The notes under the pieces are model-generated. The model was not told the origin of the DNA. It saw only the letters and a program-made list of their open reading frames with translations, and searched no databases. The position numbers were made by a program, and so were the translations under genes. Below are positions 1,942 to 10,476 of a stretch of DNA of 22,139 nucleotides, piece after piece. Each line of letters begins with the position of its first letter. Position 1 is the first letter of the stretch. This DNA is from a virus: positions 1-22,139 of the IMG/VR virus record IMGVR_UViG_3300008107_000728; one strand, written 5' to 3'.

Positions 1942-2826
1942 TTAGTCTTGGGGGAGGCAACAGACGCGGAAACCGACGTCGTTGCTGCGGTTGCCCGGGT
2001 GGTTGCCGACGCGGCAGGCCGAGCGGCAACCCCTGGGGTAGCCGTCCCACGACCCGCCGCGCAGCAGCCTTGGTTCATCATCGGAGGCAACAGACGCGGA
2101 AACCGATGCCGTCGTTGCGGTAGTCCGGGTCGTTGAGGATGCGGTAGGCCGAGCGGCAGTACGTGGGGTAGTGGAGCCACGACCCGCCGCGCAGCAGCCT
2201 TCGGACTCCCCCAGGCTGCAATCCTCCCACGAACTCCCATCATTGGGGGCGCCTTCGTAATCGCTGTGCCAGTGGTCCTGGCACCACTCCCAGACATTGC
2301 CGTGCATGTCATGCAAGCCCCAGGCATTGGCGGGGTGGCTGGCCACCTCAACAGTCGCGGGGTCGTCGCAGTTGGCCTGCTCCGGCGTCAACGTGGCCCC
2401 AAAGTAAAACGGTGTACTACTGCCGGCACGGCAGGCGTATTCCCACTGGGCTTCACTTGGCAGCCCGTAGCGCTTGCCCGTGCGCTGACTTAGGCGGCGG
2501 CAAAACTCCTGCGCGTCGCGCCAGCTCACCAGCTCTACCGGTCGCTGGTTGCCCTTGAAATAAGAAGGATCTGGTTCCAGGTCGCGCTCCACCTTCGGCC
2601 AACCCGCCACCGTCCGCCACTGGGCCTGGGTGGTCGGTGTCTGGGCCATCCAGAAGGCCCCCAGCGTCACCTGATGCTGGGGGCCTTCATCGTCAAAGCG
2701 ATCCGGCTCGTCCTCTGGAGAGCCCATCAGGAAGCTGCCGGCAGGGATCGGCAACATGGTTAGATCAAGGTCGGTCGTGGGGTTGGTCATGGGGTTGAGC
2801 AGGGATCGAAGGGTGGGATTTGTCAT
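1942..2826 (-). CDS. FGE-sulfatase-fold protein with DGR-type variable C-terminus, frameshifted
   Basis: The 294-codon frame has a formylglycine-generating-enzyme/C-type-lectin-like fold: [13 protein letters not shown] (24-36), [19 protein letters not shown] (95-113), [15 protein letters not shown] (121-135), [16 protein letters not shown] (171-186) and a final RLLRGGSW...GFRVCC block. Such proteins are known DGR targets whose surface residues diversify for ligand binding. Two variable-region copies lie at the 3' end. In the given frame copy B is read out of frame (about 40 Ala/Thr-rich residues), and copy A is read correctly, ending CCLPQD. One extra G in the G5 run at 2208-2212 would give [14 protein letters not shown], read copy B, and stop at 2078. 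Of the two active-site Cys of true FGE, only the position in GCRSA (or YCRSA) is kept; the other falls in a variable codon, so a binding role is more likely than catalysis. The ATG at 2826 has no Shine-Dalgarno; 2790 is an alternative. Confidence 0.82.
1953..2071 (-). repeat. DGR variable region, copy A (distal)
   Basis: This is the second copy, 11 bp beyond copy B. It reads [18 protein letters not shown] followed by [16 protein letters not shown], then the natural-looking end CCLPQD and TAA at 1942. The preceding codons SDDEPR resemble the usual lead-in to the last block of FGE-type targets, so this copy may be the remnant of a second target gene fused onto the first. The identical 3' end, GGTTTCCGCGTCTGTTGCC and following bases, is where an initiation-of-mutagenic-homing site would be expected. 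Confidence 0.82.
2083..2201 (-). repeat. DGR variable region, copy B (proximal)
   Basis: This 119-bp segment matches the copy at 1953-2071 exactly in length and is identical over its first 25 and last 22 bases (minus orientation). The 24 codons between hold all 19 differences: nine at first, nine at second and one at third codon positions. In its own frame it reads [18 protein letters not shown] followed by [16 protein letters not shown]. Nearly every differing codon has the form NNC, as expected when AAC codons of a template repeat are mutated at adenines. As sequenced it is out of frame with the FGE body. Confidence 0.82.
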
Positions 2827-2923: not shown

Positions 2924-3448
2924 TCACGGCCCAACCTCCCGGTCCTGCGGTTCAACCCACTTCAACCCGATCGTGTCGAACAGCTCCCGCTCAGTGCGGC
3001 AGGGAACAATCGACCCGTCCTCACGGCGCAACAGTCCGCCCTCAGAATGAAAGCCGGCACGCTTCCAGGCTGTCGCCAAGCGCAGGTGCGACCAGTCAGC
3101 GGAGCCAGTCCTGATCGCCAAAACCAAGCCATATCCGTCCGGGTGGGGCATGAACAGATCCAATTTCAATCCGCAGGAGAGCAACCTCTGGGTGTACCTG
3201 CCATCAGGGGCGCCCTTGAGTCCAGGCCACTGCCCAACAGCCTGGGCAAACCCACCGGCAAACAGCGGGGTCGATTCGAGGGGCGAGCGATCGGGTAAGC
3301 AGACGATCTCAAGGTCGCCGATCGTTGGGCGCTGCCGGCGACCACTGCCGGCTAGGTCGGCTTTGTGGCAGTGGGGCCGCAGGATGGCCAGCGTGTTGGC
3401 GGCAATGTCTAGGGCCTCGGCCAGGGGGATGCGGGGGCCGGTGCTCAT
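2924..3448 (-). CDS. minimal DNA polymerase X-like nucleotidyltransferase
   Basis: The 174-residue protein keeps the catalytic part of family X polymerases and little else. AGSGRRQRPTIGDLEIV (33-49) has the GS-x-RR nucleotide-binding motif and the metal-binding Asp45 and Glu47. GLKLDLFM has the third acid at Asp97. RTGSADWSHL (113-122) and TERELFDTIGLKWVEPQDRE (152-171) match the thumb and the C-terminal signature of bacterial PolX. Missing are the 8-kDa lyase domain, the helix-hairpin-helix fingers and a PHP domain; normal PolX proteins are about 330-570 residues. It could be a small polymerase, a terminal transferase or another nucleotidyltransferase. The ATG at 3448 overlaps the upstream stop by ATGA, so it is translationally coupled. 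Confidence 0.78.
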   Translation of the reverse strand: MSTGPRIPLAEALDIAANTLAILRPHCHKADLAGSGRRQRPTIGDLEIVCLPDRSPLESTPLFAGGFAQAVGQWPGLKGAPDGRYTQRLLSCGLKLDLFMPHPDGYGLVLAIRTGSADWSHLRLATAWKRAGFHSEGGLLRREDGSIVPCRTERELFDTIGLKWVEPQDREVGP

Positions 3449-6346: not shown

Positions 6347-8853
6347 TGGCCTCCACAACCAGGCTCATTCCCAGCGGGAAGCACAATCCCTGCCCGGTTT
6401 GCGGTCGCACAAAGGATGCGGACTGCAGGACATCGGGTGACGGGCTGGAGGTGATTTGTCATCACCCGAAAGAGCACCGCAAGGGCGAGGTGGTCACCGG
6501 GGCCGATGGGATGCCATGGGCTTTCACGGGGAACACCCAGGACGGTAGGGCCGGGCACTTCACCCTCGACAAACCCCGCGACGGGGCCCCGCGCCTTCCC
6601 AGGCGATCGATTCAGCACAGGCCAGCGGAGCCAGAACGAACACCCCCGGCGCCATTACCCGACCAGCCCCCGAAGCTGGCGCGGATGGCACCCCGTGAGC
6701 CGACCGGGAGCCCCTGGCGGTACAGCGACACCCAGCGGACCCGGAGGGTGGATCTTGAGGGAGGCGGCAAGGCCTTCTATGGATCCCACTTGGTGGGCGG
6801 CAGGTGGCAGGAGGGCAGCGGCCCTGACCCTTGGCCACTGTTCAACCAGGCCGACACGATCGGCGCCGATGGCTGGATCCTGGAACCCGAAGGCGAGAAG
6901 TGCGCAGAGATTGGGTCGTCTCAGGGGGTGGTCAGCATCAGCCAGCCGGGCCATTGCCATACCGTCGAGCAGATCGTGCCGCGTTACCGGGCGTTGCAAG
7001 AGGCCGGCGTCCCAGGGGTGATTTACCTGGCTGACTTTGACGGCCCACATCGGCCGCTGCACCAGCAGGAAGGTCGCCGCCGGGCAGAAAATGCACAGGA
7101 GGCCGCGGCGATTGCAGGCCTGCCGCTGATCGTGATCAGGGCTAACGATCTATGGCCCGGCATCCCAGACGGTGGATCGATCGACGACGCTCCAGACGGG
7201 TTCGGGGCTGCCATTGAGGACATTGAGGCCGCGGCAGTGGAGACCTACTGGACGCTGAAAGAACCTGTTCAACACCCCGTCCCCCCAGGTCCCATCACCG
7301 TTGAGCAGGTTAGGCAGCGCTATCAAGCTGCCATCGAAACCGGCGCCAGTCGGTCAGATCTTGAGACAGAACGCTTAGCCCTCGCTGCTGCCAGTGATCA
7401 ACACCCAGCTGCACTGCGCGACCTGTTCAAAAGTCTTGAGCAGGAGCAGGAGGCCGCCCATGCGATCAGCGCCGAAACCCGCGCTATTCGTGACGCCGGT
7501 GAACAGAAGGCCATGGCCCAGTGCCTTCGCCTGGATTACCTCCTGCCTCCTTCCCTGGCCCAGGCCCTCACGATCCGCACCACCTGGTTGCCGGCTGATG
7601 ATGTTGCCGCAGTCATGGCGTTTCTGACCTGCATATCGGGCCTGGTCAAATTGGGCACCGAGCTGGTGGCCTGCCCCGCCGCTGGCTACCGGGTACCACT
7701 CAACCTCTACTGCTGCCTGGTCGCTGTATCAGGTGCCAAAAAGTCACCCCTCAGCCGGGCTCTGGTCTCCGAACCAACCCACGCCCTGCGCCTTGACCTA
7801 GCACGCGATCACGATCGAGCCGAGAAAAACTGGGAGGAGCAGAACCGTGGCGTCAAGCCCGCCGATCGCACCGACCCCCCCAAGCCTGCCTACGTCTCGG
7901 TAACCGATGCCACGGCCGAGGCATTGATTCATCAGCTGCAGGTTCAGGAGGCCCGTGGTTTACCCCTGCTGTGGGAGCGCGATGAATTGGCCGGCCTTAT
8001 CGGTGGCCTCAATGCCTACCGGGGCGGCCGTGGCGGTGACAGCGAACACCTCCTAGAGGCTTATGACGGCAGTGGTTTCAGGTCCCTGCGGATCTCAACC
8101 ACTGGCGGCAGCCGCTCTTACAGCCGTTGCCACCTCTCCATCTGGGGCACCATCCAGCCCGATGTGCTCAAAGACCTGGTGAAAGGCGGTGACGCCTCCG
8201 GTCTTTGGGCCCGCTTTGCATTTGTTCCCCTGCCCGAAGAAGTCGTCCCCCTGGCCGTGAACCTTTCCCGGGCAGAGTTAGATGCAGCTCAGTGGGCCGA
8301 AAGCATGCTCAAGGATGTATGTGGCCAGATCTATCGCCTGCCGCGTTCCAGCATCTCCCTTAGCCCTAAGGGGCGTTCTGCATTCGTTGCCTATGAGGCC
8401 CGCTGTCAGCGTGACGCCCTTGATGCCGTGATCCCTGCCCAGGGGGCTCTCATGGCCAAGTCAGCAGGCAAGGCCCTCCGGATCGCTGGCCTAATCCACC
8501 TGCTCAACCAAGTCTCCCCAGACGGCGAACACAGCAACACCATCGGCGCTGAGGCGATCACCAGGGCCGCCACCCTGACCGACTACCTCAACTCCTGGGC
8601 ACTGGGCCTTCATGCTTCAGCCGCTGATGGCCCCAACGACCTCATGCGGTTGATTCACAAGATCGCCCGCACTGCTGGGAATCGTCCGGTGACATGGCGG
8701 GACATCCAGCCTCGCCTTTCGAAGGTTCAGCGTCGTGAGGCTGATGCCGCCGCAGGGGCTCAGGCAATGCACGCATTGGCAGCCATGGGCCTAGGCGAAG
8801 TGGTTGTAGGGGCCAGAGGCGCGACCACCTACCAGGCCACTGGCGACTTCTGA
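6346..8853 (+). CDS. replication protein: zinc-finger/TOPRIM-like primase fused to DUF3987 helicase-like domain
   Basis: This 835-residue protein shows a four-cysteine N-terminal zinc finger (Cys16, Cys19, Cys27, Cys38; CPVCGRTKDADC). A TOPRIM-like region follows at about 175-235 (WILEPEGEKCAE, then VIYLADFDG). A linker with helical repeats (LEQEQEAAHA) leads to a DUF3987 domain with a Walker-A-like SGAKKSPL near 461 and a Walker-B-like WERDELAGLIGG near 541. DUF3987 proteins are found as primase-helicase-like replication proteins of phages and plasmids. It probably primes and unwinds phage DNA, and a candidate origin lies directly downstream. The ATG at 6346 overlaps the RHH stop; a TTG at 6343 is possible. 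Confident on domain type, less on biochemical activity. Confidence 0.82.
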   Translation: MASTTRLIPSGKHNPCPVCGRTKDADCRTSGDGLEVICHHPKEHRKGEVVTGADGMPWAFTGNTQDGRAGHFTLDKPRDGAPRLPRRSIQHRPAEPERTPPAPLPDQPPKLARMAPREPTGSPWRYSDTQRTRRVDLEGGGKAFYGSHLVGGRWQEGSGPDPWPLFNQADTIGADGWILEPEGEKCAEIGSSQGVVSISQPGHCHTVEQIVPRYRALQEAGVPGVIYLADFDGPHRPLHQQEGRRRAENAQEAAAIAGLPLIVIRANDLWPGIPDGGSIDDAPDGFGAAIEDIEAAAVETYWTLKEPVQHPVPPGPITVEQVRQRYQAAIETGASRSDLETERLALAAASDQHPAALRDLFKSLEQEQEAAHAISAETRAIRDAGEQKAMAQCLRLDYLLPPSLAQALTIRTTWLPADDVAAVMAFLTCISGLVKLGTELVACPAAGYRVPLNLYCCLVAVSGAKKSPLSRALVSEPTHALRLDLARDHDRAEKNWEEQNRGVKPADRTDPPKPAYVSVTDATAEALIHQLQVQEARGLPLLWERDELAGLIGGLNAYRGGRGGDSEHLLEAYDGSGFRSLRISTTGGSRSYSRCHLSIWGTIQPDVLKDLVKGGDASGLWARFAFVPLPEEVVPLAVNLSRAELDAAQWAESMLKDVCGQIYRLPRSSISLSPKGRSAFVAYEARCQRDALDAVIPAQGALMAKSAGKALRIAGLIHLLNQVSPDGEHSNTIGAEAITRAATLTDYLNSWALGLHASAADGPNDLMRLIHKIARTAGNRPVTWRDIQPRLSKVQRREADAAAGAQAMHALAAMGLGEVVVGARGATTYQATGDF

Positions 8854-8859
8854 ACGAAG

Positions 8860-9215
8860 GGCGCTTGAGCCTACGTAGGTCATACGTAGGTCGGGTGAAC
8901 CTACGCTCAAAACCCAGTCATAGAAAGGGATTATATATAATTAATAATATATGTAGGCATGTAGATACCTTTTTTCTTTCTCGTTTCCCCTCCCCTCCTC
9001 ATTTCCTCAGTTTTTGTGACTAGCGACCTACGCAGGCCTACGCAGCCTTCATGGCCCAAACCCCTTGCGCTGCAGTTGATCGTATGTAGGCGGAACGACC
9101 TTCGTAAGACCTACACAAGACCCCCCTACGTGAAGAACTGGGCAAGCCGGCAAGGCTCTGCAGCCCCTCCAGAGCCCCCCCGTTGCATCCCCAGCCGCCA
9201 GGGCCTACGGTTGCG
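8860..9215. other. candidate replication origin: CCTACG iterons, AT-rich stretch and pyrimidine tract
   Basis: The gap from 8854 to 9262 has no convincing gene. CCTAC(G/A) or its complement occurs ten times: 8870, 8874, 8885, 8900, 8952, 9027, 9037, 9085, 9110 and 9125, with one more at 9204. Two of these form a direct 10-bp tandem (CCTACGCAGG, CCTACGCAGC). Between the two clusters lies an almost pure A/T stretch (8931-8953), followed by about 40 nearly pure pyrimidines on the plus strand (8968-9008). Iterons next to an AT-rich unwinding element directly after a primase-helicase gene are the usual layout of a theta origin. No DnaA-box search was possible. Confidence 0.5.
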
Positions 9216-9262
9216 TGGCTGGTGTTCCAGCCCCCCTCGCATCCCCTCTCAGGATTGATCCC

Positions 9263-9421
9263 ATGGCCCATGAAGCCCTCCAGAGCCACCTCACCGCCAT
9301 GGCCAAGGCACACCCCCGCGAGCACCCTTTCACCCTTGCCCTGAGGCTGCAGGTCGCCACAGGGAAGGAGATCACCGGGGCGCAGGCGGCGAAGTTGCTA
9401 GAGGCTGGAGGGCGGGGCTGA
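9263..9421 (+). CDS. small hypothetical protein
   Basis: This 52-residue protein is mostly helical (MAHEALQSHLTAMAKAHP, then FTLALRLQVATGKEITGAQAA). The C-terminal part, VATGKEITGAQAAKLLEAGG, resembles a short HTH-like or EF-hand-adjacent helix turn, but I assign no family. The ATG at 9263 has a weak AGGA eight bases upstream, and the stop overlaps the next ATG by one base (TGATG), which supports translation. It is the first gene after the candidate origin. Confidence 0.5.
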   Translation: MAHEALQSHLTAMAKAHPREHPFTLALRLQVATGKEITGAQAAKLLEAGGRG

Positions 9422-10023
9422 TGGCAGCGCGATGGTCCGCAGAAGACATCGAGGCCTTGACCGATCTGACCGGTGAACTGCCCTGGCATATGGTTGTTGC
9501 CAAATTCAACCGGCGCCGGCCCCCAAGGACAGAATATGCAATGCTCAACAAGGTTGATCAATTGCGTTTATTAAGAAAGCCGCAAGGTGAATTTATTGCA
9601 ATATGCGCAATAAAAGCTCTCACTGGGTATTCTTCCGAAAAAATCTGCTTATGGATCGACTCCGGCGACTTGCCTGCTGTTGCGCGGTCTGAAGCGACAA
9701 ACAGCCCTCGCTACATCTCCCGCAAAAGCCTTAGAAGTTTTGCCAGGAAGCGGCCTGATCAATTTGGTGGAATGGGGCAGGCAGAACTGACGCAGTTGTT
9801 TGACTGTGAAAAACTGGCGGCTAAGATTGTTGAAATGCACCTACCTAAGCTAAGTAATTCTATAGAAATAGAATGTATCGAAACTCGACGCCGATACCCC
9901 TCTATTGCTGCAGCTGCAAGGGAGGCGCGGGTTAGCCCCGAATTTGTAACAAAAGCTATTCGCCAAGGGTTTCCTGTTCGTGCCAGGCATTACCGCAGGG
10001 TTGACCAGCCCCTTAAGACTTAG
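9421..10023 (+). CDS. DNA-binding protein with Myb-like, MerR-like and NUMOD1-like modules
   Basis: This 200-residue protein appears to string together three DNA-reading modules and no catalytic domain. Residues 4-30 (RWSAEDIEALTDL, then PWHMVVAKFNRR) look like a SANT/Myb helix set. Residues 60-110 (AICAIKALTGYSSEKICLWI, then YISRKSLRSFARKRP) look like an excisionase/MerR-type winged helix. Residues 153-185 (YPSIAAAAREARVSPEFVTK) resemble the NUMOD1 helix found in homing endonucleases. It may be a transcription or replication regulator. From about 9530 the gene is visibly richer in A+T than its neighbours, which suggests separate acquisition. It is one base overlapped with the gene before. 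Confidence 0.65.
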   Translation: MAARWSAEDIEALTDLTGELPWHMVVAKFNRRRPPRTEYAMLNKVDQLRLLRKPQGEFIAICAIKALTGYSSEKICLWIDSGDLPAVARSEATNSPRYISRKSLRSFARKRPDQFGGMGQAELTQLFDCEKLAAKIVEMHLPKLSNSIEIECIETRRRYPSIAAAAREARVSPEFVTKAIRQGFPVRARHYRRVDQPLKT

Positions 10024-10041
10024 TTGACGTAAGGTGGGGGG

Positions 10042-10476
10042 ATGGCTGATTTGATCCACTTCAATATCGAGGGCATCAGGCCCGCCCCTCAAGGCTCAAA
10101 AAAGCACGTTGGGCGCGGGGTCATGGTGGACATGAGCGCCAACCTCAAGCCCTGGCGCGAAGCGGTCAGGCAGGAAGCCCTGAAGACTGGGGCAGCCATG
10201 GCACTGGGCCCGGTGTCCGTTGAGTTGGTGTTCAGGTTTGCTAGGCCTAAGGGCCACTTCAACACCAAGGGGCAGCTCAAGCCGAGCGCACCGATGCACG
10301 TCATCGTCAAGCCCGACATAGACAAGATCGAGAGATCAGTGCTGGATGGATTGACCGGCGTATTGTTCAAGGATGATTCTCAAGTGTGCTGCCTTTATGC
10401 ATTGAAGGTGTATTGCAAGGAAGGGGAACTTGAGGGGTGTGAGGTGATTGTTGAGAATGTTGGGGTGGGGGGATAG
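10042..10476 (+). CDS. rusA: RusA-family Holliday junction resolvase
   Basis: This 144-residue protein carries the RusA signature in KPDIDKIERSVLDGLTGVLF followed by KDDSQV. Asp92 and Asp94, with Asp111 or Asp112, match the catalytic acids of E. coli RusA, which as a dimer makes paired nicks in four-way junctions. An N-terminal GIRPAPQGSKKH segment is also typical (PxPQGSKR). Phages use RusA to resolve recombination or replication intermediates before packaging. AAGGTGGGG precedes the ATG at 10042. The next gene begins immediately after its stop. Confidence 0.9.
   Translation: MADLIHFNIEGIRPAPQGSKKHVGRGVMVDMSANLKPWREAVRQEALKTGAAMALGPVSVELVFRFARPKGHFNTKGQLKPSAPMHVIVKPDIDKIERSVLDGLTGVLFKDDSQVCCLYALKVYCKEGELEGCEVIVENVGVGG

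Follow-up and report, generated by a model that had tools for sequence, protein, structure and literature searches.

The target gene and its two variable regions

The window, by which we mean the whole stretch of DNA analysed here, is a viral record of 22,139 bases with genes for terminase, portal, S49 protease and major head protein. Its minus strand carries a gene whose product matches the FGE-sulfatase domain (PF03781, E 3.8e-46 in a profile search), bearing out the FGE-fold assignment of the initial annotation. The PDB sequence relatives of the product are PvdO and Treponema variable protein 1, and the fold of the modelled protein resembles PvdO, FGE enzymes and the Treponema DGR variable protein 2y3c. 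The AlphaFold model of the 0-frame protein is only of moderate quality (mean pLDDT 63.4, pTM 0.68), with pLDDT below 50 across residues 202-250, the stretch into which the 0-frame linker falls. The features of the gene, including its two variable regions (VRs), are:

1942-2826, minus strand: FGE/C-type-lectin-fold target gene, 0-frame ORF, 294 aa (ORF list, PF03781, PDB relatives, fold match)
2223-2227, minus strand: GGAGG, Shine-Dalgarno-like, exactly 10 nt 5' of the slip heptamer (sequence; same spacing in 12 of 16 loci)
2206-2212, minus strand: putative slip site GGGGGAG, 0-frame codons CTG GGG GAG (sequence, comparison of relatives)
2083-2201, minus strand: VR1, 39 residues, in the -1 frame; the 0 frame reads an Ala/Ser/Thr/Arg/Pro linker (repeat, frame, template comparison)
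2153-2190, minus strand: predicted stem GCGGCGG (2184-2190)/CTGCCGC (2153-2159), inside VR1 and 3' of the slip site (folding)
2075-2080, minus strand: tandem TGA stops of the -1 frame, directly after VR1 (sequence reading)
1953-2071, minus strand: VR2, 39 residues, in the 0 frame, followed by PQD and a TAA stop at 1942-1944 (repeat, frame, template comparison)

A repeat search recovered both 119-nt copies where they had been annotated, 84% identical and offset by 130 nt. They differ at 19 positions, 18 of them at codon positions 1 or 2, also as annotated (9, 9 and 1 differences at VR codon positions 1, 2 and 3); in gene orientation the shared start is indeed 25 bases long, while the shared end measures 24 bases rather than 22. 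VR1 is the copy closer to the FGE body and VR2 the distal copy that ends the ORF. The adenine-directed pattern proposed for them holds up against a template from a related cyanobacterial genome, on whose adenines 15 of the 19 VR1-VR2 differences sit, and the description of the locus as tandem DGR variable regions at the 3' end of an FGE-fold gene is likewise supported.

Absent from the earlier reading is the frame offset between the two copies relative to the FGE body. The 0-frame ORF runs open across VR1 and terminates after VR2; of the two copies only VR2 shares this frame, VR1 being in the -1 frame and followed by a separate stop. Because the frames differ, one polypeptide carries only one VR in the VR frame, so that the suggested pair of independently diversified binding surfaces in one protein is not supported. 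The other suggestion, a fusion of two target genes, is not required, as the VR pair recurs in related phages.

The best PHROGs category for the gene product is 'kinase' (E 1.6e-67), followed by a weak match to tail protein (E 5e-5), and no obvious export signal was seen by eye in the target protein. A scan of gene neighbourhoods in three relatives (L002, L004 and L023; 20 chosen ORFs) found the target gene near DUF3799 nuclease, SSB, dCTP deaminase and cytosine methylase in L023, dCTP deaminase and terminase in L002, and terminase and M15 peptidase in L004, with no clear tail module in these three. The protein may bind the host surface, or it may act inside the cell as a decoy or in counter-defence; we lean slightly towards intracellular binding. 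Adjoining the FGE gene in the window, at 2924-3448 on the minus strand, is an ORF whose sole match is the DNA polymerase beta thumb domain (PF14791, E 4.1e-9).

Recurrence in related phages

Searches of viral contigs for relatives returned 78 loci and then 78 with 32 new. Among 215 distinct FGE bodies (viral and genome loci together with the window), the off-frame arrangement is found in 16 distinct viral genes: those of the window, L002, L003, L004, L006 (two), L007, L008, L009, L010, L017, L018, L022, L023, L048 and L165, with the near-copies L005, L011, L019 and L193 left out. In all 16 the first VR is exactly in the -1 frame and the 0 frame stays open past it; in all 16 the -1 ORF overlaps the slip site and has its own stop, which lies 2-6 codons beyond GFRV in every off-frame locus. 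A 0-frame VR follows the -1 VR in 15 of the 16, the exception being L002, the closest relative of the window, which has a single VR, in the -1 frame. At the other extreme, L022 has five -1 VRs, each behind GGGAAAG, then a sixth in the 0 frame and an orphan VR past the stop. VR copy number shifts even between near-twins, since L017 carries an extra VR identical to its own VR1 that is missing in L019 (bodies 582/583 identical).

A frame offset is also what a damaged gene would show, and a pseudogene, an assembly error or an accidental fusion of two genes could produce one. The same offset, however, recurs in 15 further distinct viral genes, which are 57-86% identical to the window gene and have an open FGE body, and we give explanations of this kind hardly any credence.

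The bacterial-genome loci examined contain no off-frame arrangement. Two of them (L140 and L164) have a -1 VR past an early 0-frame stop and a third (L266) has a VR in the +1 frame; L194 has a second VR-like match in a different frame, past the stop. A scan of the viral contigs for the slip-plus-VR pattern yielded no contigs beyond those already found.

Several loci show other layouts of the same parts. At 8900-10861 of L006 one target gene follows another, and both have a GGAGG-N10-GGGAAAG and a -1/0 VR pair of their own. On the viral contig L045, at about 8150-10300, at least 13 VR-like cassettes in all three frames, 131-151 nt apart where adjacent, lie upstream of an FGE body and are possibly a cassette store. 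L031, L032, L033 and L034 are permuted FGE genes, with 2-4 in-frame VRs in 153-nt steps N-terminal to an FGE body that itself ends without a VR; L033 and L034, near-identical by eye, have 4 and 3 VRs, respectively, of different sequences.

Template, reverse transcriptase and diversification

A template repeat (TR) and a reverse transcriptase (RT) had been expected in the genome, and neither is in the contig. The expectation failed for the viral records and held for a genome of the same family as Synechococcus sp. Tobar12-5m-g. In the window and 18 other records with off-frame genes (643,397 bases; the records may be fragments) there was no RT match, and the only template-like sequences were VR-type copies and matches below 25 nt; RT matches were sought in 50 of the 78 loci from the first viral search and in 12 further loci. 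The window gene can thus qualify as a DGR target but not as a complete element.

Exact adenine-rich TR patterns had no matches in the viral contigs or in 300 genomes from the G053 family. When 400 genomes of the Synechococcus sp. Tobar12-5m-g family were searched by similarity, with two candidates scored per genome, so that further TRs may have been missed, two matching templates emerged, in G310 and G345. The order in G310 (L269) is FGE target, helical Avd-like ORF (by eye), RT with YVDD, and TR; G310 is a genome related to candidate hosts and is not known to be the host of the window phage.

Compared with the G310 TR, VR1 of the window differs at 11/25 adenine sites and 6/77 non-adenine sites, and VR2 at 13/25 and 5/77. 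The same excess is seen across the off-frame genes: over 102 central positions per VR, mismatches to this TR amount to 266/475 at template A versus 157/1463 at non-A in the -1 VRs (n=19), and to 212/350 versus 101/1078 in the in-frame VRs (n=14). Not counted were one gapped VR from each of L006 and L022, both exceeding 25 non-A mismatches, the orphan VRs that L017 and L022 have in the +1 frame, and L019, which nearly duplicates L017. Since the excess at template A is present in both classes, both -1 and 0-frame VRs look like DGR products.

Natural variants point the same way. L008 and L048 are identical at 520/597 positions in the body and at 344/400 in the downstream DNA, and their VRs differ at 23/102 (VR1) and 22/102 sites (VR2), of which 15 and 19, respectively, fall on template A, a distribution that would agree with DGR diversification. 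L010 and L023, with bodies 94% identical, have the same VR1 and differ in VR2 at 21 sites, 18 of them on template A; here recombination at VR2 is possible, because the DNA past VR2 also differs (191/388).

Template and RT would probably be supplied in trans by a host DGR, and the phages carrying the gene probably infect small cyanobacteria. A TR adjoins an RT match in L109/L212 (Synechococcus sp. Tobar12-5m-g), L113/L209 (Cyanobium sp. FGCU6), L087/L204 (Cyanobium LBMAG bin3) and L098/L208 ('Microcystis elabens' FACHB-917). DGRs have been said, in the consulted part of one report, to be seemingly absent from Synechococcus spp. (PMC7517822); the TR and RT match of L109/L212 stands against that statement. 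A further locus, L246, has at 7179-8006 (minus strand) an RT-like ORF that by eye is broken inside YVDD and runs into a VR-type 3' end (FRVCCLPQ); its PF00078 match is weak, below the cut-off, and it belongs to a cluster of FGE targets that has TIR-like and ATPase-like ORFs next to it.

Codon design of the variable regions

Mutagenesis of AAC codons gives NNC in the VR frame and NCN, that is, Ser, Pro, Thr or Ala, in the 0 frame. Because the template adenines are mostly in AAC-type codons, mutagenesis is stop-free in either frame: randomising the adenines of the G310 template gave no stop in any frame (0/20,000 simulated). With this no-stop design, rewriting of VR1 leaves the 0-frame product unharmed. 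By the same token, we dropped the open 0 frame through VR1 as evidence of its use, as an A-randomised template never stops.

At the constant sites of VR1, 25/45 distinct changes are synonymous in the -1 frame (29% expected) and only 6/45 in the 0 frame (28% expected), counted after leaving out VRs with more than 20 such mismatches. VR2 in its own frame gives a similar figure (24/45), so that the bias in VR1 could come from template copying alone.

A slip-type signal before VR1

The 0-frame codons before VR1 are CTG GGA AAG in 9 of the 16 genes, CTG GGG GAG in 6 (the window included) and GCA AAA AAG in one (L018). One of the heptamers GGGAAAG, GGGGGAG or AAAAAAG thus stands in the 0 frame right before the first VR in 16/16 off-frame genes. 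Ten have an exact X XXY YYZ heptamer (G GGA AAG or A AAA AAG). The GGGGGAG of the window is imperfect, with perfect re-pairing in the P site only, and we infer that slipping may take place there as well. Upstream, GGAGG is placed exactly 10 nt from the heptamer in all but L009, L017, L022 and L165.

In-frame single-VR genes served as controls. Among 176 of them, just 2 carry any of these heptamers in frame in the interval from body to VR, AAAAAAG in each case; the three sequences had been picked after inspection of the off-frame genes. A perfect XXXYYYZ of any composition occupies this interval in 10/16 off-frame versus 14/176 in-frame genes. GGAGG-N10-heptamer is found in 0/161 in-frame genes (this set comprises loci up to L196, and the set of 176 all loci at that stage). 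In 5.56 Mb of the relatives' loci, both strands, GGAGG-N10-GGGAAAG occurs 6 times and GGAGG-N10-GGGGGAG 4 times, always at a VR, and GGAGG-N10-AAAAAAG occurs 4 times, once at a VR. Codon habit does not account for GGA at the slip site, as only 21/263 Gly codons in the FGE bodies of the off-frame genes are GGA. All such counts across loci are not independent, because the loci share ancestry.

The third element would be a hairpin. A GCGGCGG/CTGCCGC stem follows the heptamer in many loci, most with weak z-scores; for 60-nt stretches z is -3.09 in the window, and among 17 folded it is below -2 only there and in L003, L010 and L023. As constant VR codons form the stem, which is intrinsic to the VR copies, it provides no independent evidence.

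In the protein tree GGGAAAG and GGGGGAG are both present within the window/L002/L003 group and again within the L007/L008/L048/L165 group, into which L010 and L023 fall, so the heptamer has switched between the two at least twice, and each seems to be retained. L015, the sister of the second L006 gene on the tree, has a single in-frame VR and GAGAAAG in place of the heptamer; the putative slip site is gone where no shift would be needed. The tree is compatible with one or several origins (11/27 inner branches are open).

Two other accounts of the junction have to be weighed against ribosomal frameshifting. The switch of frame could be made by RNA polymerase slippage, for which AAAAAAG and GGGGGAG offer short homopolymer runs. 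Yet in GGGAAAG, the most frequent of the sites, no base is repeated more than three times in a row, and the GGAGG that recurs at 10 nt is indicative of a signal to the ribosome, which makes a transcriptional origin most improbable. Alternatively, VR1 could be a silent cassette or relic, with only the 0-frame protein (body, linker and VR2) being made and VR1 serving at most as a recombination donor for VR2. VR copies do duplicate, as the second VR of L017 illustrates, L002 gets by with one VR, and the linker needs no stop avoidance, since A-mutagenesis makes no stops. A silent VR1 would, however, leave unexplained the heptamer at the junction in 16/16 loci against 2/176 controls, the exact GGAGG-N10 spacing, the GGGAAAG ahead of each of the five -1 VRs of L022, and L002, whose sole VR is in the -1 frame. 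We consider it unlikely, though the least so of the alternatives.

Proposed mechanism

In the mechanism that we propose, the choice between hypervariable C-termini is made by programmed -1 ribosomal frameshifting, and the phage gene that encodes them is probably diversified in trans by a DGR of the host; from the sequence comparisons we put the probability of this reading at roughly 0.8. The gene would be a DGR target carried by the phage, with a set of alternative C-termini, all hypermutable, encoded at its 3' end. A ribosome keeping to the 0 frame would translate VR1 into a linker of ~45 residues, probably disordered, and end with VR2. A ribosome slipping back by one base at the heptamer, aided by GGAGG 10 nt upstream and by the hairpin formed from VR constant codons, would fuse VR1 directly to the FGE body and terminate immediately behind VR1. 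With two such translation routes one gene would give two variants, at a ratio set by the slip efficiency.

Relation to known systems

Classical -1 frameshifting offers the closest parallel to the junction: in dnaX the SD-like element is spaced 10 nt from the slip site, and the slip heptamer of lambda G-T is of the X XXY YYZ kind. The arrangement described here shares with dnaX and lambda G-T such a heptamer (10/16), an SD-like GGAGG at 10 nt, a downstream stem and two C-termini per gene, the latter predicted from sequence. It differs in that the alternative ends are copies of one hypermutable module, of which an array is possible, and in the imperfect GGGGGAG of the window itself. For dnaX, a slip site A AAA AAG accompanied by a stem-loop and an SD-like element is described (PMC6787027), and G_GGA_AAG is called highly shift-prone in E. 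coli (PMC5009743).

DGRs with a C-type-lectin/FGE-fold target share with the present locus the A-directed TR/VR mismatches at codon positions 1 and 2, the VR at the 3' end and the FGE fold, as well as, in the related cyanobacterial genome, a matching TR with an RT and an ORF resembling Avd by eye next to it. Here, in contrast, two or more VRs are in different frames behind a slip-type heptamer (L002, with its single VR, aside), and no RT or TR was found in the phage records. More than one VR-bearing domain per target gene, with diversification in trans, is known from Thiohalocapsa PB-PSB1 (PMC10907252), where the tandem CLec domains are in one protein and the consulted part of the report mentions no frameshift choice.

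The kind of target and the kind of recoding signal are each known; their combination we could not find described. In the open-licence literature as far as it was consulted, subscription papers lying mostly outside this scope, no description of a DGR with frameshift-chosen hypervariable C-termini was found, and one report that takes up both DGRs and ribosomal frameshifting handles them as separate annotation topics.

Significance

If the proposed frameshifting is real, it would connect targeted hypermutation with recoding in a new way. A tried variant could be kept in one frame while the other is diversified, both being expressed at a ratio fixed by slip efficiency, and the L022 array suggests a graded choice among six ends. 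Ordinary gene calling would pick up only the in-frame VR and overlook the others. The system also makes phage use of a host DGR in trans testable. We give even odds to the broader picture of a phage family, probably of picocyanobacteria, in which up to six hypermutable ends per gene would be chosen by a -1 slip before each off-frame copy and rewritten by the RT of a host DGR, so that several versions of one protein may be displayed at once.
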